A DNA stretch of 64,000 nucleotides from Rhodospirillales bacterium (GTDB lineage Bacteria; Pseudomonadota; Alphaproteobacteria; Rhodospirillales_A; JACZKS01): the NCBI GenBank assembly GCA_018648445.1, contig JABGRG010000001.1, positions 1 to 64,000 on the forward strand, written 5' to 3'. The notes below the pieces were generated by a model. That model was not told where the DNA came from. It saw only the letters and a program-made list of their open reading frames with translations, and made no database searches. Both the position numbers and the translations under genes were made by a program. Shown here in pieces: positions 18,171 through 35,537 of the stretch. Position 1 is the first letter of the stretch. Each line of letters begins with the position of its first letter.

Positions 18171-18186
18171 TGTTTCACGTGAAACA
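18171..18186. other. parS: parS centromere site 1
   Basis: TGTTTCACGTGAAACA is a perfect match to the 16-base bacterial parS consensus and a perfect palindrome. It lies between rsmG and mnmG, 1.5 kb from parB. ParB would nucleate here and spread. Confidence 0.96.
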
Positions 18187-20185: not shown

Positions 20186-20201
20186 TGTTTCACGTGAAAC
20201 A
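20186..20201. other. parS: parS centromere site 2
   Basis: A second perfect TGTTTCACGTGAAACA. On the minus strand it begins at the very next base after the mnmE stop codon. The two parS sites are about 2.0 kb apart. Confidence 0.96.
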
Positions 20202-28177: not shown

Positions 28178-29221
28178 CTACAACGCGCGCCAGGAGGTGA
28201 TTTGCCGCGCCAGTTCGATGACGTTTTCGACCGGCGTCTGCGGAACCACGCCATGGCCCAGATTAAAGACGAACGGTCCCTTGCCGAAAGCGTCGAGAAT
28301 CTCCGCCGCCGCGGATTTCATCTTTTCACCCCCCTCAACAACAAGAAGCGGATCAAGGTTTCCCTGGATGGTGCACATTTTTTGCAAATTATTTGCCGCG
28401 AACCCCAAATCAAGTTCACTGTCTATACCCACGCCATCGACGCCCGTTTCGGTCACATACGCCGGGTACAAATTTTCAGCCCCGCGCGGAAAACCGATAA
28501 ACGGAATATGGGGATATCTCGCCCGGACTTTTTCGATGATCGTCCTTGTCGGCGCAATAACCAGCCGGCGGAATTGGTCTTCATTCAAAGCGCCTGCCCA
28601 GGTATCAAACAATTGCAGCGCTTCGGCCCCATTGGCCACCTGTTCAATCAGATAAGCCGCCGTGGCATTGACCAAGATTTCCATTAGCCGGGCAAAACCA
28701 GCCTGATCTTCGGTATCCCAACCCAGCGCCCGTGAAAAATCCGTTTTGCCGCGTCCTTCCACCATGTAGGTGGCCACTGTCCACGGCGACCCGGCAAATC
28801 CGATCAACGCGGTTTTTTCGGGTATCTCGGCAGCAAGACGGCGCACGGTTTCGAACACCGGCGTCAAATGATCACACACACCCTCGGAATTCAGGCGCCC
28901 CAAATCATCGTTTCCCCGCAGCCGTTCCAATACCGGTCCCTCGCCCTCGCGGAACTCAACCGTTTGTCCCAAGGCGTCGGGTATGACCAGAATATCGCAA
29001 AATAGGATAGCGGCGTCGGGACTGAAACGGCGCAGCGGCTGAAGGGTTGCTTCGACCGACAGATCCGGGGTGTAGCAAAATTCGAGGAAATTACGCGCGG
29101 TCGTTCGCAGTTCCCGATATTCCGGGAGATAGCGCCCTGCCTGACGCATGAACCAGAAAGGTGGCGTTGCCAGCGCTTCGCCTTGAAGGGCCTGAAGGAA
29201 CGGTTTGGATGGTTCGGTCAT
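28178..29221 (-). CDS. hemE: Uroporphyrinogen decarboxylase
   Basis: The 347-residue enzyme decarboxylates uroporphyrinogen III to coproporphyrinogen III. Family signatures are PPFWFMRQAGRYLPEYRELR (substrate-binding arginines), PDAAILFCDILVIPDALGQTVEF, GFAGSPWTVATYMVEG, FDTWAGAL and FNLGHGVVPQTPVENV. The ATG at 29221 matches the family start and has AAAGGGAAAA upstream; 17 further open codons are not family-like. The gene faces away from the putative origin. Confidence 0.97.
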   Translation of the reverse strand: MTEPSKPFLQALQGEALATPPFWFMRQAGRYLPEYRELRTTARNFLEFCYTPDLSVEATLQPLRRFSPDAAILFCDILVIPDALGQTVEFREGEGPVLERLRGNDDLGRLNSEGVCDHLTPVFETVRRLAAEIPEKTALIGFAGSPWTVATYMVEGRGKTDFSRALGWDTEDQAGFARLMEILVNATAAYLIEQVANGAEALQLFDTWAGALNEDQFRRLVIAPTRTIIEKVRARYPHIPFIGFPRGAENLYPAYVTETGVDGVGIDSELDLGFAANNLQKMCTIQGNLDPLLVVEGGEKMKSAAAEILDAFGKGPFVFNLGHGVVPQTPVENVIELARQITSWRAL

Positions 29222-29621
29222 GCGTAATTTTCCCTTTGAAGAACACATCTTATCCATACCCCCCCTAAACAAGAATATTTTTTAAAAGAATCTTGTAGTT
29301 GTTGTTGGGGCCATGAGTCCTGGGGATTAATGGTGGTCCACAATCCATCCCCAGAAGCGCCCGCACCCGGCGTGTTTTCGACGTCGACGGGAAAACCCTG
29401 TTGATGGCGCCGACGCACCGACCGAACGTGGCGCACCGACTCCAAATTCGGAAAAGCGGGAATAGCGGGGACAGAAAATCTCCCGGATCAGGCCCTTCGC
29501 GTTTTACAGATCGGCGGATAACATTTCTATTTGTGTCCGCACCGGTGTAAAAAAGATTGCGTAACAAGAGTAGATTTCGAAGTCGGGTAAATCGGAGGGG
29601 GTTTATCCCCAGGATTCGAAA
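29222..29621. other. oriC: Candidate chromosomal replication origin (oriC)
   Basis: This is a 400-base gap between divergent hemE and ppsR. The Caulobacter origin lies in the gap between the same two orthologues. Words close to the DnaA box TTATCCACA are TTATCCATA (29250-29258), TGGTCCACA (29334-29342) and TTATCCCCA (29603-29611). Three copies of ATCCCCA in either orientation (29321-29327, 29347-29353, 29605-29611) resemble the weak TCCCCA DnaA sites described in Caulobacter. An AT-rich patch at 29271-29292 could be the unwinding element. A 33-base palindrome (29321-29353), a second inverted repeat (GTTTTC/GAAAAC, 29374-29396) and a CGCACCGAC direct repeat (29414, 29432) add to the structure. 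No TTAA-N7-TTAA CtrA site was seen. Confidence 0.65.
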
Positions 29622-30464
29622 ATGGTTCGCCAAAAGGGCATTCAGAATAAAACCGTGAACGTGCACATCGTATCGGACTCCACCGGCGAGACCGCAACTT
29701 CGGTCGCCCGCGCGTGTCTGGCTCAATTCGACCGCGTGGTTTGGATCGAGCATATCTGGCCTATGGTCCGCAAGAAAACCCAACTGAAAGAAATTTTGGC
29801 GGGCATCCGGAAAAACCCGGGTATCGTCATTTACACCCTGGTAAACCGGGAAATTCAGGAGCGCCTGGAAGAAGACTGCCGGCAGATGCAGGTTCCGTGC
29901 GTGCCGGTTCTCGATCCGGTTTTGGAAATGATGCACTCGTATCTGGGCGCGCCGGGCAAACCGCGGCCGGGCCGCCAACACGAGATGGATTCCGAATATT
30001 TTGCCCGCATAGAGGCGGTGCATTTCGTGTTGCGTCACGACGACGGCAAACACCCCATTGATTTTGATGAGGCCGACGTGGTTATCGCCGGCGTTTCACG
30101 AACGCTGAAAACGCCGACGTGTATTTATCTGGCCAACCGCGGCATCAAGGCGGCCAATATTCCGATCGTTCCCGGCGTGCCGATACCGCCCGAGGTGTTG
30201 AAGGAAGGCGCGCCGCTGGTCGTGGGTTTGACCAAAGACCCTAAGCGTCTGGTCCAAATTCGCCGCAACCGGCTGAAAATGCTGAACCGCGACGACGATA
30301 CCGATTACGCCGATATCGACACGGTTTCCGAGGAAGTTCGTACCGCCCGCGAGATTTTCAAGGCCCACAAGTGGCCGGTGATCGATGTGACCCGCAAGTC
30401 GGTTGAAGAGGTGGCCGCAACAATCATGCAACTCCACAAAAAACGGAAGGACGCGCAGCTTTAG
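29622..30464 (+). CDS. ppsR: Pyruvate, phosphate dikinase / PEP synthase regulatory protein
   Basis: The 280-residue protein belongs to the DUF299 family, bifunctional kinase/phosphorylases that switch PPDK or PEP synthase on and off. Seen motifs are VHIVSDSTGETATSVARA at the N-terminus, FVLRHDDGKHP, and the P-loop-like GVSRTLKTPTCIYLANRGIKAANIPIVPG. GLTKDPKRLVQIRRNRL follows. It corresponds to the first gene beside the Caulobacter and Rickettsia origins, which supports the origin call for the upstream gap. Confidence 0.95.
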   Translation: MVRQKGIQNKTVNVHIVSDSTGETATSVARACLAQFDRVVWIEHIWPMVRKKTQLKEILAGIRKNPGIVIYTLVNREIQERLEEDCRQMQVPCVPVLDPVLEMMHSYLGAPGKPRPGRQHEMDSEYFARIEAVHFVLRHDDGKHPIDFDEADVVIAGVSRTLKTPTCIYLANRGIKAANIPIVPGVPIPPEVLKEGAPLVVGLTKDPKRLVQIRRNRLKMLNRDDDTDYADIDTVSEEVRTAREIFKAHKWPVIDVTRKSVEEVAATIMQLHKKRKDAQL

Positions 30465-30477
30465 CGCAGACCTAACC

Positions 30478-31080
30478 ATGCGCAGATCACGCCTTGTCCT
30501 GGCCTCGGCAAGCGCTACCCGCGCCCGACTGCTCTCGGCTGCGGGAATCGAGTTCGAATGTGATCCCGCCGATGTGGACGAGGCCGCCATCAAAATCGAT
30601 CTGGAACGGACCGGGGCGGGTGCTGCGGACGTGGCGCACGCCCTTTGCGCCGCCAAGGCCATGGCTGTCAGCGAACGTCACCCGGATGCTTACGTAATCG
30701 GCGCCGATCAAATTTTGGAACATGGCGGGCAAAAGTTCGACAAGGCGTCCAGCCTCGACGATGCCCGCCGCCAGTTACAGGCCTTGCGCGGCCGAACCCA
30801 TAGCCTTGTGTGCGGCGTTTGCGCCGTGCACGAGCGCCGCCTGACTTGGCGGCATGAGGCGACGGCGCGCCTCGAAATGCGCGATTTCAGCGATGAATTT
30901 CTCGACGCATACCTGATCCGGGCCGAGGATGCCTGCCGCAATTCGGTCGGGGCCTACTATGTGGAAGGGCTGGGCGCGCAGTTATTTGCACGTATCGACG
31001 GCGATCACTTCACCATTCAGGGATTGCCCATGCTGGCTTTGATGGATTTCTTGCGCCGCGAAGGGCTACTTGCGTCATGA
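30478..31080 (+). CDS. maf: Maf-family nucleotide pyrophosphatase
   Basis: The 200-residue protein has the Maf patterns RLVLASASATRARLLSAAGIEFE at the start, AMAVSERHPDAYVIGADQILEHGG in the middle, and RNSVGAYYVEGLGAQLFARIDGDHFTIQGLPM near the end. Maf proteins hydrolyse non-canonical or modified nucleoside triphosphates. The usual final EGLG and GDH segments are intact. It lies 13 bases after ppsR, in the same conserved order seen near other alphaproteobacterial origins. Confidence 0.92.
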   Translation: MRRSRLVLASASATRARLLSAAGIEFECDPADVDEAAIKIDLERTGAGAADVAHALCAAKAMAVSERHPDAYVIGADQILEHGGQKFDKASSLDDARRQLQALRGRTHSLVCGVCAVHERRLTWRHEATARLEMRDFSDEFLDAYLIRAEDACRNSVGAYYVEGLGAQLFARIDGDHFTIQGLPMLALMDFLRREGLLAS

Positions 31081-31105
31081 GGGAACGGCCCCGGGAAGAA
31101 CGGCT

Positions 31106-31702
31106 ATGGTGATACTTGGGCTGACCGGTTCAATCGGCATGGGCAAGACGGTGGCCGCCGGGATGTTCCGGCAGCTGGGTGTGCCGGTGCATGACGCCGA
31201 TGCGTTCGTTCACAAGGCGTTAGCTGAAAATCGTGACGTAATCCGACAGGTCGGGAACTTGTTCGCGGGTATCGCGGGGAGCGGAAAAATCGATCGTATC
31301 GCCCTGGGCGCACGGGTATTTGGCGACGACGAAGCCCTGGCTGCCCTGGAGGCGATTCTCCATCCGGCGGTTCAGCGCGATCAGGCGGCGTTCATCGGGC
31401 GCGCCGCTTGCCGCAGGGAACGGCTGGTCGTCCTTGATATTCCGCTCCTGTTCGAGACCGGCGCCGAGCTTGATTGCGATTTCACGGCGGTTGTCACCGC
31501 GCCGCCCTGCATTCAAAGGGGCCGGGTCCTGCGCCGTCCCGGAATGACGCCGGAAAAACTGGGAAATATTCTGTCCCGCCAGATGCCGGACGCCGAAAAG
31601 ACACGGCGCGCCGATTTTGTCATCCGTTCCGGCCTGGGACGGCGTGCGGCCTTGCGCGAGGTGCGGCAAATCGTCACATTGTTGCGCCCCGGCCTCAACT
31701 GA
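31106..31702 (+). CDS. coaE: Dephospho-CoA kinase
   Basis: The 198-residue enzyme performs the last step of CoA synthesis. The P-loop is [11 protein letters not shown] at the N-terminus, followed by [40 protein letters not shown] and [17 protein letters not shown]. Note that aroE, usually between maf and coaE in alphaproteobacteria, is absent. ATG 31106 gives the family start; open codons before it overlap maf. Confidence 0.95.
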
Positions 31703-31721
31703 AATCAACCGACGGAACCCC

Positions 31722-32390
31722 ATGCGCGAAATTGCTCTCGATACCGAAACGACCGGCCTTGACCCAAACTCCGGCGACCGCATTGTCGAAATTGGGGCGG
31801 TGGAGTTGATCAATCATCTGCCCACCGGCGAAACCTATCAGGTTTACATCAATCCGCAGCGCGATATGCCGGAAGAGGCCTTCGCGGTGCACGGGCTGTC
31901 GGACGAATTCCTGGCCGACAAGCCGGTATTCGCTGATGTGGCGGATGGATTTCTGGATTTCGTTAGCGACGGCGATCTGGTGATCCACAACGCCGAATTC
32001 GACATGAAGTTCCTGAAGTACGAGTTCGGCTTGCTGGATAAACCGGCCCTGTCGGCCAATCGCGTGATCGATACGCTCAGCATTGCGCGGCGCAAATTTC
32101 CGGGCTCACCCGCCAATCTTGACGCCCTGTGCCGCCGTTTCCAAATCGATCTTTCGGACCGCTCGCTGCACGGCGCGCTGAAAGACGCCAAGCTGCTAAG
32201 CGAAGTTTATCTGGAGCTCATCGGTGGCCGCCAAGCCGACCTGGCGCTTGCGCGGGATGCGCAAAGCCCGGTGGCGGCACAGGAAGGCGTGCGCAATCAG
32301 CGCGTCGCCCGTCCCCACGCGCCCAGCGCTGAGGAAGAGGCCCGGCACGCGGCCTTCCTGAAAAAACTGAAAAACCCGCTTTGGGATTAA
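31722..32390 (+). CDS. dnaQ: DNA polymerase III epsilon subunit (proofreading exonuclease)
   Basis: The 222-residue 3'-5' exonuclease has the DnaQ motifs [27 protein letters not shown] (Exo I), [16 protein letters not shown] (Exo II) and [19 protein letters not shown], whose HxxxxD is Exo III. The C-terminal region ([13 protein letters not shown]) is the short tail that binds the polymerase subunit. It overlaps the convergent secB by four bases. Confidence 0.95.
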
Positions 32391-32884
32391 GCCTCTTCGG
32401 CCTGCGCTGCGGCCGCTTGCTGTGCGAGCTGGTTCTGGAACATCCCGACAAAATCCACCGGGGCCAGCATCAGCGGCGGGAAGCCGCCGTCGCGGGTCGC
32501 GTCGGCAACGATGTTGCGGGCGAACGGGAACAACAGGCGCGGGCATTCGATCAAAAGGATCGGCTGTAGGGTTTCCTGGGGCCCGGTCACCGTAAACAGT
32601 CCGCCGTAAGACAGCTCGCAAACGAAGGCTGCGGTCTCTTTGACGTCGCATTGGGCGTGGATGGTCAGGACCACCTCATACATATCACCCTCTACCGGAT
32701 CGGCCTTGACGTCGATATTCACCGTGATGTCAGGCTGCGAATCCTGCTGGGCTGCGTAGACAGCGGGCGCGCCGGGGACTTCAAAGGAAAGGTCCTTGAC
32801 GTACTGCGCGACGACCGCAAGCGTCGGGGCTGCATTTTCTTCGGTGGTGGCGGCGGTTTCGTCGGGCGTGCCGTTGGCGTTCAT
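32387..32884 (-). CDS. secB: Protein-export chaperone SecB
   Basis: The 165-residue protein holds preproteins unfolded for SecA. Family patterns are [59 protein letters not shown] and [40 protein letters not shown]. The N-terminal 20 residues and the alanine-rich C-terminus are variable. Its position beside dnaQ is the usual alphaproteobacterial order. Confidence 0.96.
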
Positions 32885-32951
32885 CTTTATGATCTCCGTT
32901 TCTGGATAATTTTGGCGTGGCTACCATAGTCGCGCCCCGCTGGCAACAACC

Positions 32952-33464
32952 CTAACGGTCGTCGCGTTGCCATGGGCTTTCGTTTTTTTCAGAGGGCGGG
33001 CTATCTGTGCCATCCCCGACCTCTTCGAATTCGCCCTCGATGACCGACGGGTCCCGGTCCGGCGTATTGCCCGGGCCGAAGCCGCCCGCCTGAACGTTCA
33101 CGCGGCCCGAGGATTCCAGATAACGGCCAACAAGGCCGCGAAAACCGGCGCGAAAGGCGGGCACGAACAAAAGAAATCCGAAGGCGTCGGTGACGAAACC
33201 CGGCGTCAGCAACAAGGCCCCGGCCAGCAACAGGCAAAGCCCATCGAAAACCTCGGCCATGGGAAAGCGGCCGACGGCGAGATGTTGTTGAGCGCGGGCC
33301 AGGGTCGAAAACCCCTGGTGGCGCAAAAGCCCGGTTCCGATAACGGCGGTCAGAACCACCACCGCCAGCGTCGGAACAAGCCCCAGCCAGCCGCCCACCT
33401 CGATAAAAACGGCGATTTCGATGATCGGAACACCGATCATTAGGATAAGAAGAATTAGACCCAT
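32952..33464 (-). CDS. fxsA: FxsA-family membrane protein
   Basis: The 170-residue protein begins with LILLILMIGVPIIEIAVFIEVGGWLGLVPTLAVVVLTAVIGTGLLRHQG and has a third hydrophobic segment at about residues 70-90 (GLCLLLAGALLLTPGFVTDAFGFLLF). This is the FxsA pattern: an inner-membrane protein with three or four helices, reported to relieve phage T7 exclusion when overproduced in E. coli. The C-terminal 50 residues are hydrophilic. The adjacent divergent gene encodes a Tim44-like protein, a conserved pairing. Confidence 0.92.
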   Translation of the reverse strand: MGLILLILMIGVPIIEIAVFIEVGGWLGLVPTLAVVVLTAVIGTGLLRHQGFSTLARAQQHLAVGRFPMAEVFDGLCLLLAGALLLTPGFVTDAFGFLLFVPAFRAGFRGLVGRYLESSGRVNVQAGGFGPGNTPDRDPSVIEGEFEEVGDGTDSPPSEKNESPWQRDDR

Positions 33465-33637
33465 GCTTGCCCTGAAACGATTATCGGATTATCTACATTC
33501 TAGATGGTGGTTCGCCAATCATACCCGAAGGCGCAAAACAGGTCACATTTCGCGCGCTCGGAGTTTTGTGCGTCCCATCGTATTTAAACCACGAGAACCC
33601 GGCGGTCCAGCCGGGATGAATTGTCGGGAAAGCGATT

Positions 33638-34360
33638 ATGGGTAACGGCATCCAGTTTCTAGACATTATTTTCTTCGCCCTGATCGCGGCATTTCTTGTT
33701 CTCAGGCTGCGAAACGTCCTGGGTAAGCGCGACGGGCATCAACGCGACCAGAACGACCAGAACGACCCGTTCAACCTCGGCCGGCCGCCGCAGGCGGGAA
33801 ACGAAAACGTCGTATCGCTCCCCGAGCGTGAGGATTCCGGCGCCTTTGAAGAACTCGTCAATTCCCGGATCGGCGACGAGGACGCCGCCGAGATCGACCA
33901 GCAAGATCCGCTGGCGGTGGGCCTGACCCAGATCATGCGGGCCGACAAGAGTTTCGAGGTTGAGGATTTCCTGGTTGGCGCGCGCACGGCTTTCGAAATG
34001 ATCATCGGCGGTTTTGCCTCTGGCGATACCGATATGCTACAGGCCTTGCTCAGCCGTGAAGTTTACGGAAATTTCGCCGAAGCCATCGCCAAACGCGAAG
34101 ATGCCGACGAATCCCTGGAAACACTGATCAGCGCCATCCGCGTTTCCGAAATGGTCGAAGCCTACATGGAAGGGGCGACGGCCTATGTCACCGTCAAGTT
34201 CGTCAGCGATCAAACCAAAGTGACCCGCAATGCCGAAGGCAAGATCATCGACGGTGATCCACAGGAAAGCACCGAGGTCACCGACTTCTGGACCTTCGCC
34301 CACAACACCCGGGCACGCGATCCGAACTGGACCCTCGTGGCGACGGGAAGCCTTGATTGA
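33638..34360 (+). CDS. Tim44/TimA-family protein
   Basis: The 240-residue protein starts with a single transmembrane helix (FLDIIFFALIAAFLVLRLRNVLGKR) and a charged linker. The C-terminal Tim44-like domain contains FLVGARTAFEMIIGGFASGDTDMLQALLSREVYGNFAEAI and EVTDFWTFAHNTRARDPNWTLVATGS. Bacterial TimA relatives are membrane-anchored and related to mitochondrial import motor Tim44; the bacterial role is unclear. Its end overlaps the mltA start by eight bases. Confidence 0.9.
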   Translation: MGNGIQFLDIIFFALIAAFLVLRLRNVLGKRDGHQRDQNDQNDPFNLGRPPQAGNENVVSLPEREDSGAFEELVNSRIGDEDAAEIDQQDPLAVGLTQIMRADKSFEVEDFLVGARTAFEMIIGGFASGDTDMLQALLSREVYGNFAEAIAKREDADESLETLISAIRVSEMVEAYMEGATAYVTVKFVSDQTKVTRNAEGKIIDGDPQESTEVTDFWTFAHNTRARDPNWTLVATGSLD

Positions 34361-35537
34361 TCCCCTGAAAAAGCTGATTGCCCTGGGGTCGGTCCTGGGG
34401 ACGGCCCTGGCCGCCCTTTCGGCTTGCGGTTTTGTTGAAATTGGCGAATTCACCGGTTTTGGTGAAAAACCGACGGTCCTGCCCCAAACGCCTGCGGGCC
34501 TGACCCTGAGCGCGGTCGAGTTCACGGATCTTCCCGGCTGGACCGCCGAACGCCACGCGCAAGTCCTTCCGGCCATTCTGAAATCGTGCTCGCGCATCGG
34601 CAAAATGCCCATGAACAAAGCATGGGGGCCGGGCAACGTGGCCGGACTGGCTGCCGACTGGCGCAAGCCCTGCGCCGCGGCCCTAAGGGTTCAGCCCGGA
34701 AACGGCGCGGCGGCGCGCTATTATATCGAATCGCGGTTCGACGCGTTTCTGGCTGCGGCGGGCGAAACCCCCGACGGTCTTTTCACCGGGTATTACGAGG
34801 CCGAATTGACCGGCTCGCGCAGGGAGTCAGCGCGCTTCCAGGTTCCCATATACGCGCCGCCGCCGGATTTGAAGGCCGTCAAGGAGCGTTCCGGCGGGCG
34901 TTATCTTTCGCGCAACGACATTTTTGCAGGCGCATTGCGCAACAAGGGTCTCGAGGTGATGTGGGTCGATGATCCGGTGGACGCCTTTTTCCTGCATGTT
35001 CAGGGGTCGGGCCGTGTCGCCATGACGGAAGGAAACGTCGTGCGTGTCGGTTACGCTGGCGACAACGGCCACAAATACGCTTCCATCGGCCGCGAACTGA
35101 TCGCGCGGGGCATTATTCCCAGAGAAAAGCTGTCCATGCAGTCGATCCGCGCCTGGATCACCGCCAACCCGACCCAGGGCAGCAACCTGATGGCCCACAA
35201 TCCGCGCTATATCTTCTTTCGTGAACTGGCGGGCAGGGACGGACCGATCGGGGCCGAGGGCGTGGCCCTGACGCCGGAACGGAGCCTCGCCGTGGATCGG
35301 GCCTTTCTGCCGCTGGGCGTCCCGCTTTGGGTGACGACCATCGATCCTTTGAATCCCAACAAGGCGTTCAACCGGCTGATGGTGGCCCAGGATACGGGCA
35401 GCGCTATAAAGGGGCCGGTGCGCGGCGACATCTTCTTCGGGTTCGGCGACGAAGCAGCGCGCCGGGCGGGAAACATGAAAGCCAAGGGCCGCTATTACCT
35501 GTTGCTGCCCAAGAAGACGCAAATTCCGATATCGTGA
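34353..35537 (+). CDS. mltA: Membrane-bound lytic murein transglycosylase A
   Basis: The 394-residue protein cleaves peptidoglycan glycan strands. A lipoprotein signal is present (KKLIALGSVLGTALAALSAC, lipobox LSAC). MltA hallmarks are ESRFDAFLAAAGETPDGLFTGYYEAEL, VMWVDDPVDAFFLHVQGSGRV, TANPTQGSNLMAHNPRYIFFREL, AVDRAFLPLGVPLWV, AQDTGSAIKGPVRGDIFFGFGDEAARRAG. The catalytic aspartate is in QDTGSAIKGPVRGD. The start is taken as TTG at 34353, with GGGAAG three bases upstream; no ATG is available nearby. It overlaps the Tim44-like gene. Confidence 0.9.
   Translation: MIDPLKKLIALGSVLGTALAALSACGFVEIGEFTGFGEKPTVLPQTPAGLTLSAVEFTDLPGWTAERHAQVLPAILKSCSRIGKMPMNKAWGPGNVAGLAADWRKPCAAALRVQPGNGAAARYYIESRFDAFLAAAGETPDGLFTGYYEAELTGSRRESARFQVPIYAPPPDLKAVKERSGGRYLSRNDIFAGALRNKGLEVMWVDDPVDAFFLHVQGSGRVAMTEGNVVRVGYAGDNGHKYASIGRELIARGIIPREKLSMQSIRAWITANPTQGSNLMAHNPRYIFFRELAGRDGPIGAEGVALTPERSLAVDRAFLPLGVPLWVTTIDPLNPNKAFNRLMVAQDTGSAIKGPVRGDIFFGFGDEAARRAGNMKAKGRYYLLLPKKTQIPIS

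Follow-up and report, generated by a model that had tools for sequence, protein, structure and literature searches.

The intergenic gap between the divergent genes hemE and ppsR is very probably the chromosomal replication origin (oriC) of an uncultured alphaproteobacterium, as predicted from the sequence of a 64-kb window (the whole stretch of DNA that was analysed; Table 1). A first-pass annotation had placed oriC here, and the gene pair, DnaA boxes, low duplex stability, skew and an unwinding module all agreed with that placement. Within the gap, a run of five TNG units probably acts as DnaA-trios, to judge from its sequence. Sequence order, conservation, skew, stability and a residue change in relatives were observed directly. 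To the earlier annotation the analysis added the TNG run (29293-29307), the skew switch, four GANTC sites and the conservation of the element order.

Table 1. Features of the predicted origin and its surroundings (positions in the 64-kb window)
Feature	Position	Strand	Remark
perfect parS palindrome	18171..18186	.	11.0 kb left of gap
perfect parS palindrome	20186..20201	.	9.0 kb left of gap
hemE, left flank	28178..29221	-	TIGR01464, 382.6 bits (NCBIfam model)
oriC (predicted), hemE-ppsR intergenic gap	29222..29621	+	400 bases
DnaA-box-like site TTATCCATA	29250..29258	+	left of AT-rich stretch; 1 mismatch to TTATCCACA
candidate duplex unwinding element	29265..29304	.	least stable 40 bp of window; nearest-neighbour energies, rank 1/63,961
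GANTC (CcrM-type) site	29288..29292	.	in AT-rich stretch
five DnaA-trio-like units TTG TAG TTG TTG TTG	29293..29307	+	3'-GNT-5' read away from boxes
GC-rich spacer	29308..29320	+	13 nt
further GANTC sites	29315, 29438, 29613		
DnaA box TAATCCCCA (top strand TGGGGATTA)	29321..29329	-	putative anchor box of unwinding module; 2 mismatches
weak DnaA-box-like site TGGTCCACA	29334..29342	+	2 mismatches to TTATCCACA
ATCCCCA word, candidate weak DnaA site	29347..29353	+	
weak DnaA-box-like site TTATCCGCC	29513..29521	-	2 mismatches
DnaA box TTATCCCCA	29603..29611	+	ppsR end, inverted relative to 29321-29329; 1 mismatch
ppsR (COG1806/DUF299), right flank	29622..30464	+	PRK05339, 342.7 bits (NCBIfam model)

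Gene context and conservation

The claimed divergent arrangement of hemE and ppsR was borne out by matches to TIGR01464 and PRK05339 on the minus and plus strands, respectively. The proven origin of Caulobacter sits at the same hemE/COG1806 pair, and the origins of Caulobacter crescentus and Rickettsia prowazekii are like the window in flanking genes, DnaA boxes and an AT-rich stretch (PMC1914354; here and below, statements from cited papers cover the portions available).

Relatives were searched with an alignment of 42 of 120 listed homologues, and the best 80 of 595 ppsR loci were used; a scan of genome contigs with the single protein gave two pattern matches and no relative. hemE was divergent beside ppsR in 71 of these best 80 loci, the aligned ends of the two proteins being 264 to 793 nt apart, and at the other nine no hemE was found in the sampled DNA, some of which ended at a contig edge. 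A side-by-side comparison of the gaps showed an ordered core near hemE, in which an AT-rich stretch and a TNG run are followed, after a spacer, by an inverted DnaA box that ends GGGGATT.

A profile built from 18 relatives, with the window excluded, matched 29245-29339 at 28.6 bits (E 9.9e-7), while its best score was 7.1 bits on 30 shuffled windows and 6.7 bits on 300 shuffled gaps. Among the matches listed, the first one outside the gaps and ppsR-upstream regions had an E value of 0.062. The seeds had been picked for runs of at least three T[AGT]G units followed by GGGGAT[TC], by which a middle C was barred, and only searches that allowed any of the four letters were therefore used for the tallies of middle bases given below. 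Four loci in which hemE was not found (L026, L043, L058 and L059) were also matched by the profile upstream of ppsR, with E values from 3e-4 to 9.9.

Duplex stability and strand skew

Nowhere in the 64-kb window was the duplex less stable than in the AT-rich patch pointed out in the first-pass annotation, whether measured over 25, 40 or 60 bp. For the skew, 61 open reading frames were picked by length and codon composition, free of annotation, and third-position skew was calculated for the plus strand with correction for gene strand. The cumulative curve reached its minimum between hemE (frame centre 28724) and ppsR (frame centre 30042). Of the breakpoints tried every 500 bases, the best fell at 29000-30000 with a side effect of +0.102, and the permutation p at the gap breakpoint was 0.0086 in the 64-kb window.

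A contig of 687,776 bases from Thalassobaculum fulvum (G018), with the gap at 204,878 and dnaA at 34,740, was sampled with 20 stretches of 20 kb, about one per 34 kb. Of the first 7 stretches, the last of which held the gap, 6 had negative skew, and of the 13 that followed 12 had positive skew. The first-pass annotation had named a skew minimum next to dnaA as evidence that would speak against the gap. In this one sampled relative none was seen: around dnaA, 170 kb from the gap, no lasting switch occurred and nearby values were -0.004, -0.022, +0.006 and -0.023. The same sampling in Novosphingobium gave a skew too noisy to be read. dnaA is described as not conserved near the origin in Rhodospirillales (PMC8116508).

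DnaA boxes and inverted repeats

The three near matches to the DnaA box proposed at 29250, 29334 and 29603 were present, with 1, 2 and 1 mismatches to TTATCCACA. Three sites in the gap were within one mismatch of TTATCC[AC]CA (shuffled mean 0.19, reached by 0 of 300 shuffles) and six were within two (shuffled mean 2.4, reached by 4 of 300). The first-pass annotation gives TCCCCA as the letters of the weak DnaA sites at the Caulobacter origin. Weak DnaA sites, named W-boxes, are also described for Caulobacter (PMC10797057). Counting both strands, the three ATCCCCA words reported for the gap were recovered, against a shuffled mean of 0.11 and a maximum of 2; for boxes and words alike, the nulls were dinucleotide shuffles of the gap itself. 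The inverted repeats likewise proved real, pairing 29315-29330 with 29602-29617 and 29320-29336 with 29338-29354.

A plus-strand box was found within the last 120 nt in 46 of 72 gaps, and the last fifth of the gaps held 47 forward sites versus 13 inverted ones. The window has ten sites with at most one mismatch to TTATCCACA, of which six fall in 29250-34263 (29250, 29603, 31981, 32901, 33489 and 34255), and a comparably box-rich 5.1-kb stretch appeared in 0 of 25 shuffles. This cluster possibly represents DnaA-titrating or regulatory sites beside the origin.

The putative unwinding module

The published basal unwinding system (BUS) consists of a DnaA box followed, at most 16 bp away, by at least three trios 3'-NAN-5' on the 5' tail from the box, with the spacer peaking at 10-13 bp (PMC8287927). 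The end bases of a trio may vary and the middle must be A (PMC6727663). Thermotoga maritima has three TAG units (PMC10316083). In the window, the minus-strand box at 29321 lies 13 nt from the repeats in the correct polarity, within the 16 bp of the published definition. The window shares with the B. subtilis BUS a box, a 13-nt spacer, AT-rich DNA and trinucleotides repeated in tandem on a single strand, 5' of the box, whereas its middle base is A in only one of five units and the conserved letters are T and G. With the published rule (3'-NAN-5', at least three units), no module was found on the plus strand of the window, where T.G found five units.

Runs of at least four TNG units were present in 15 of 72 gaps on the ppsR-sense strand and in 0 of 72 on the other (shuffled mean 0.5, maximum 3). 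When trinucleotide classes were compared with two letters fixed (48 classes), T.G and its phase twins were by far the most enriched, occurring in 15-16 gaps on one strand and 0 on the other, against 0.2-0.4 in shuffles. The NAN class, found in 50 and 56 of 72 gaps on the two strands, was little above its shuffled value of 40.5 and was not strand-specific. The NAN rule also matched once on the opposite strand of the window, starting from the box at 29250-29258 and reaching, across a 16-nt spacer, three A-rich units within the AT-rich patch. This candidate was set aside as a weak rival of little weight, such matches being found in 24 and 26 of 72 gaps per strand.

Residue 187 of DnaA and the middle base

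The B. subtilis structure shows Asn187 holding the middle adenine, Arg202 and Glu228 the guanine, and Asn196 the thymine; in B. subtilis cells a middle A or C works, and G or T is poor (PMC10721633). These residues were typed by alignment to 8BTG combined with an ungapped motif count. T. maritima DnaA also has Asn at 187 in the alignment, and E. coli DnaA has Gln. Alphaproteobacterial DnaA carried Lys202 in 49 of 49 typed genomes, and Glu was present at 228 in 21 of 25 rows, the other four being one residue shorter there. Where B. subtilis has Asn187, most typed relatives of the window had Tyr (39 of 49 genomes, the others being Val in 3, Asn and Trp in 2 each, and Phe, Ile and Ala in 1 each). 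A class-wide draw in which 37 of 40 loci were typed gave Tyr 33, Phe 3 and Leu 1. Most Alphaproteobacteria may lack Asn187 and carry Tyr, or Phe, Val, Ile, Trp, Ala or Leu, at this position, and the DnaA of the window organism itself would have Tyr187.

Both Asn187 cases among the 49 were Reyranella. From its order, 41 genomes were searched for ppsR, 30 were sampled and DnaA was typed in 29 of the 30, giving 28 Asn187 and one Tyr. Inside the order Asn187 was found in 30 of 31 typed genomes, and outside it in 0 of 84. On a tree of 81 DnaA proteins, built with the motif itself removed, the state Asn versus the rest changed once.

Only positions 1 and 3 of each unit counted in the choice of five-unit blocks, and a score of at least 8 of 10 was required. 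Blocks of this score were found on 3 of 113 reverse strands and in 3 to 10 per 102 shuffled gaps. In Asn187 genomes a block was present in 25 of 30 gaps, and its middle bases were A 106, C 7, T 10 and G 2. The other typed genomes had a block in 36 of 55 gaps with A 72, T 66, G 42 and C 0, and untyped gaps, the window included, in 11 of 28 with A 19, T 19, G 17 and C 0. At this score a middle C was confined to Asn187: it occurred in 7 of the 125 Asn187 units, and in none of the 180 units from typed non-Asn gaps or the 55 from untyped ones. All five units had A or C in 16 of 25 blocks with Asn187 and in 0 of 36 without it; for the inner three units, the counts were 73 of 75 in the Asn187 order and 42 of 108 in other typed genomes. 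The one Tyr187 genome of Reyranella's order (G061) reads TGG TAG TGG TAG TAG. A unit-level Fisher test of the contrast gave 4e-18, for units that are not independent and stem from one evolutionary event.

Gaps with no TNG block at a score of at least 8 numbered 5 of 30 in the Asn187 group and 19 of 55 in the other typed genomes. The five Asn187 gaps (G074, G070, G088, G079 and G062) showed purine-rich NAG-like repeats by eye. Two Rhizobium loci (L067 and L079) had no TNG block at score 8 and have Trp187, and their unwinding module looks replaced or strongly diverged. A score of 7 was dropped as too loose, since it was also passed by 12 of 55 reverse strands in the non-Asn group, 6 of 28 in the untyped group and 1 of 30 in the Asn187 group; at that score the non-Asn group had 17 middle C among 240 units, in a group where those 12 of 55 reverse strands passed too.

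Residue 187 may well set the middle-base rule. It is further suggested, tentatively, that the single-strand code of DnaA was rewritten within one class: most members without Asn187 would read 3'-GNT-5' by its outer letters, and a nested order, whose repeats are of the Bacillus type with middle A or C, would have gained Asn187. The Asn187 contrast is one event on the tree, and the link between residue and code is therefore put forward as a hypothesis only. The single change of residue state on the 81-protein tree would also suit a history in which the freedom of the middle base and the loss of Asn187 are unrelated, and set the Asn187 order apart from the rest simply through descent. This history is possible if somewhat doubtful, as the letters fit B. 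subtilis biochemistry, where A and C are tolerated with Asn187 and G and T are poor (PMC10721633), and a middle C at the block threshold was restricted to Asn187 genomes. The Asn187 order (the order of G024; L182-L211), with gaps of 320-511 nt, had a forward box at the ppsR end in 0 of 30, and its origins therefore differ in other ways too.

Proposed mechanism and comparison with E. coli oriC

DnaA would bind and open the strands at the gap as follows. DnaA-ATP would anchor on the inverted box at 29321-29329 and its weak neighbours, and its filament would run to the left across the 13-nt spacer and along the top strand, where it would capture the TNG units at 29293-29307, holding the G and T of each. 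The AT-rich DNA at 29265-29304 would melt, and the helicase would be loaded there. The units would be read by T and G, and the middle base is proposed to be free because Asn187, its reader in B. subtilis, is Tyr in most typed relatives. The oppositely oriented box at 29603-29611 may mark or close the other end of the origin, as R4 does in E. coli.

The layout of E. coli oriC is like that of the window, with a duplex unwinding element, an inverted box and a forward box at the far end. In the E. coli sequence used here (L111) the inverted box is at 202-210 and the forward box at 382-390, which we take to be R1 and R4, respectively. Both origins have methylation sites in the unwinding region, GATC in E. 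coli and GANTC in the window. The window differs in its flanking genes, in having no exact IHF site and in its trinucleotide periodicity. TTGT in the unwound strand is common to both (PMC10316083).

The presence of TTGT, an E. coli single-strand motif (PMC10316083), in the TNG run would also suit an oriC whose repeats are not DnaA-trios, in which AT-rich melting is combined with contacts of the TTGT/TTATT type as in E. coli, or in which the trios in use lie on the opposite strand and are read from box 29250. The Gln of E. coli DnaA at position 187, the 19 of 55 typed non-Asn relatives without a clear run and the NAN match from box 29250 also point this way. Such an arrangement is nevertheless rather unlikely, given the three-base periodicity of the run, its strict strand bias (15 versus 0 of 72 gaps), its constant place in the order of elements next to the inverted box, the switch to canonical trios seen in the Asn187 order and the lack of strand bias of NAN matches in the 72 gaps.

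Regulatory sites and parS

CtrA sites (TTAA-N7-TTAA), which are found in Caulobacter, had been reported as missing, and none was present in the gap even with one mismatch allowed. An exact IHF site (WATCAANNNNTTR) was not found in the gap either, exact matches only being searched, so that the window differs from the Caulobacter and Rickettsia origins in both respects. The origins of E. ruminantium and of one Wolbachia strain lack CtrA sites too (PMC1914354). Their absence from the window's gap is no surprise, because loss of ctrA did not impair growth in Rhodospirillum centenum and Magnetospirillum magneticum (PMC8116508).

The gap contained four GANTC sites, versus 0.68 expected from the density in the window, and 229 were counted across the 72 gaps versus 143 in shuffles. 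GANTCTT within the first 260 nt on the hemE side was found in 26 of 72 gaps, versus 5.2 in shuffles, a recurrence reminiscent of GATC in the 13-mers of E. coli. GATC was not enriched (48 of 72 gaps, versus 52.8 in shuffles). GANTC is enriched and one site is inside the AT-rich stretch, and therefore CcrM methylation timing (for CcrM and GANTC, see PMC8116508) is a possible candidate to replace control by CtrA. The gaps of the order of G024 (L182-L211) were rich in GANTC as well, with 146 versus 62 in shuffles.

A parS cluster had been described about 9 kb from the gap; the distance held, with perfect sites at 9.0 and 11.0 kb, and the cluster amounts to two sites. DnaA boxes can take part in gene regulation. 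That the gap, lying between two divergent gene starts, is a shared promoter region only, with its boxes serving transcriptional control, is highly improbable in view of the skew minimum, the least stable DNA of the 64 kb, parS 9 kb off, the unwinding module and the proven Caulobacter origin at the same gene pair (PMC1914354).

Meaning for Alphaproteobacteria

In relatives with a clear block and no Asn187 (36 of 55), the unit ends were largely kept and the middle varied, contrary to the printed rule. The published module search uses 3'-NAN-5' (PMC8287927), and a literature search covering mainly open-access papers turned up no alphaproteobacterial trios described as free in the middle base. If the proposed code is true, standard searches would overlook the unwinding site, or put it in the wrong place, across much of the Alphaproteobacteria, and the residue that sets the code could be tested by a single amino-acid change. 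The B. subtilis trio (TAG) and the E. coli single-strand motif (TTGT) would then be alternative readings of one repeat, and the Asn187 order would be a natural swap experiment on origin recognition.
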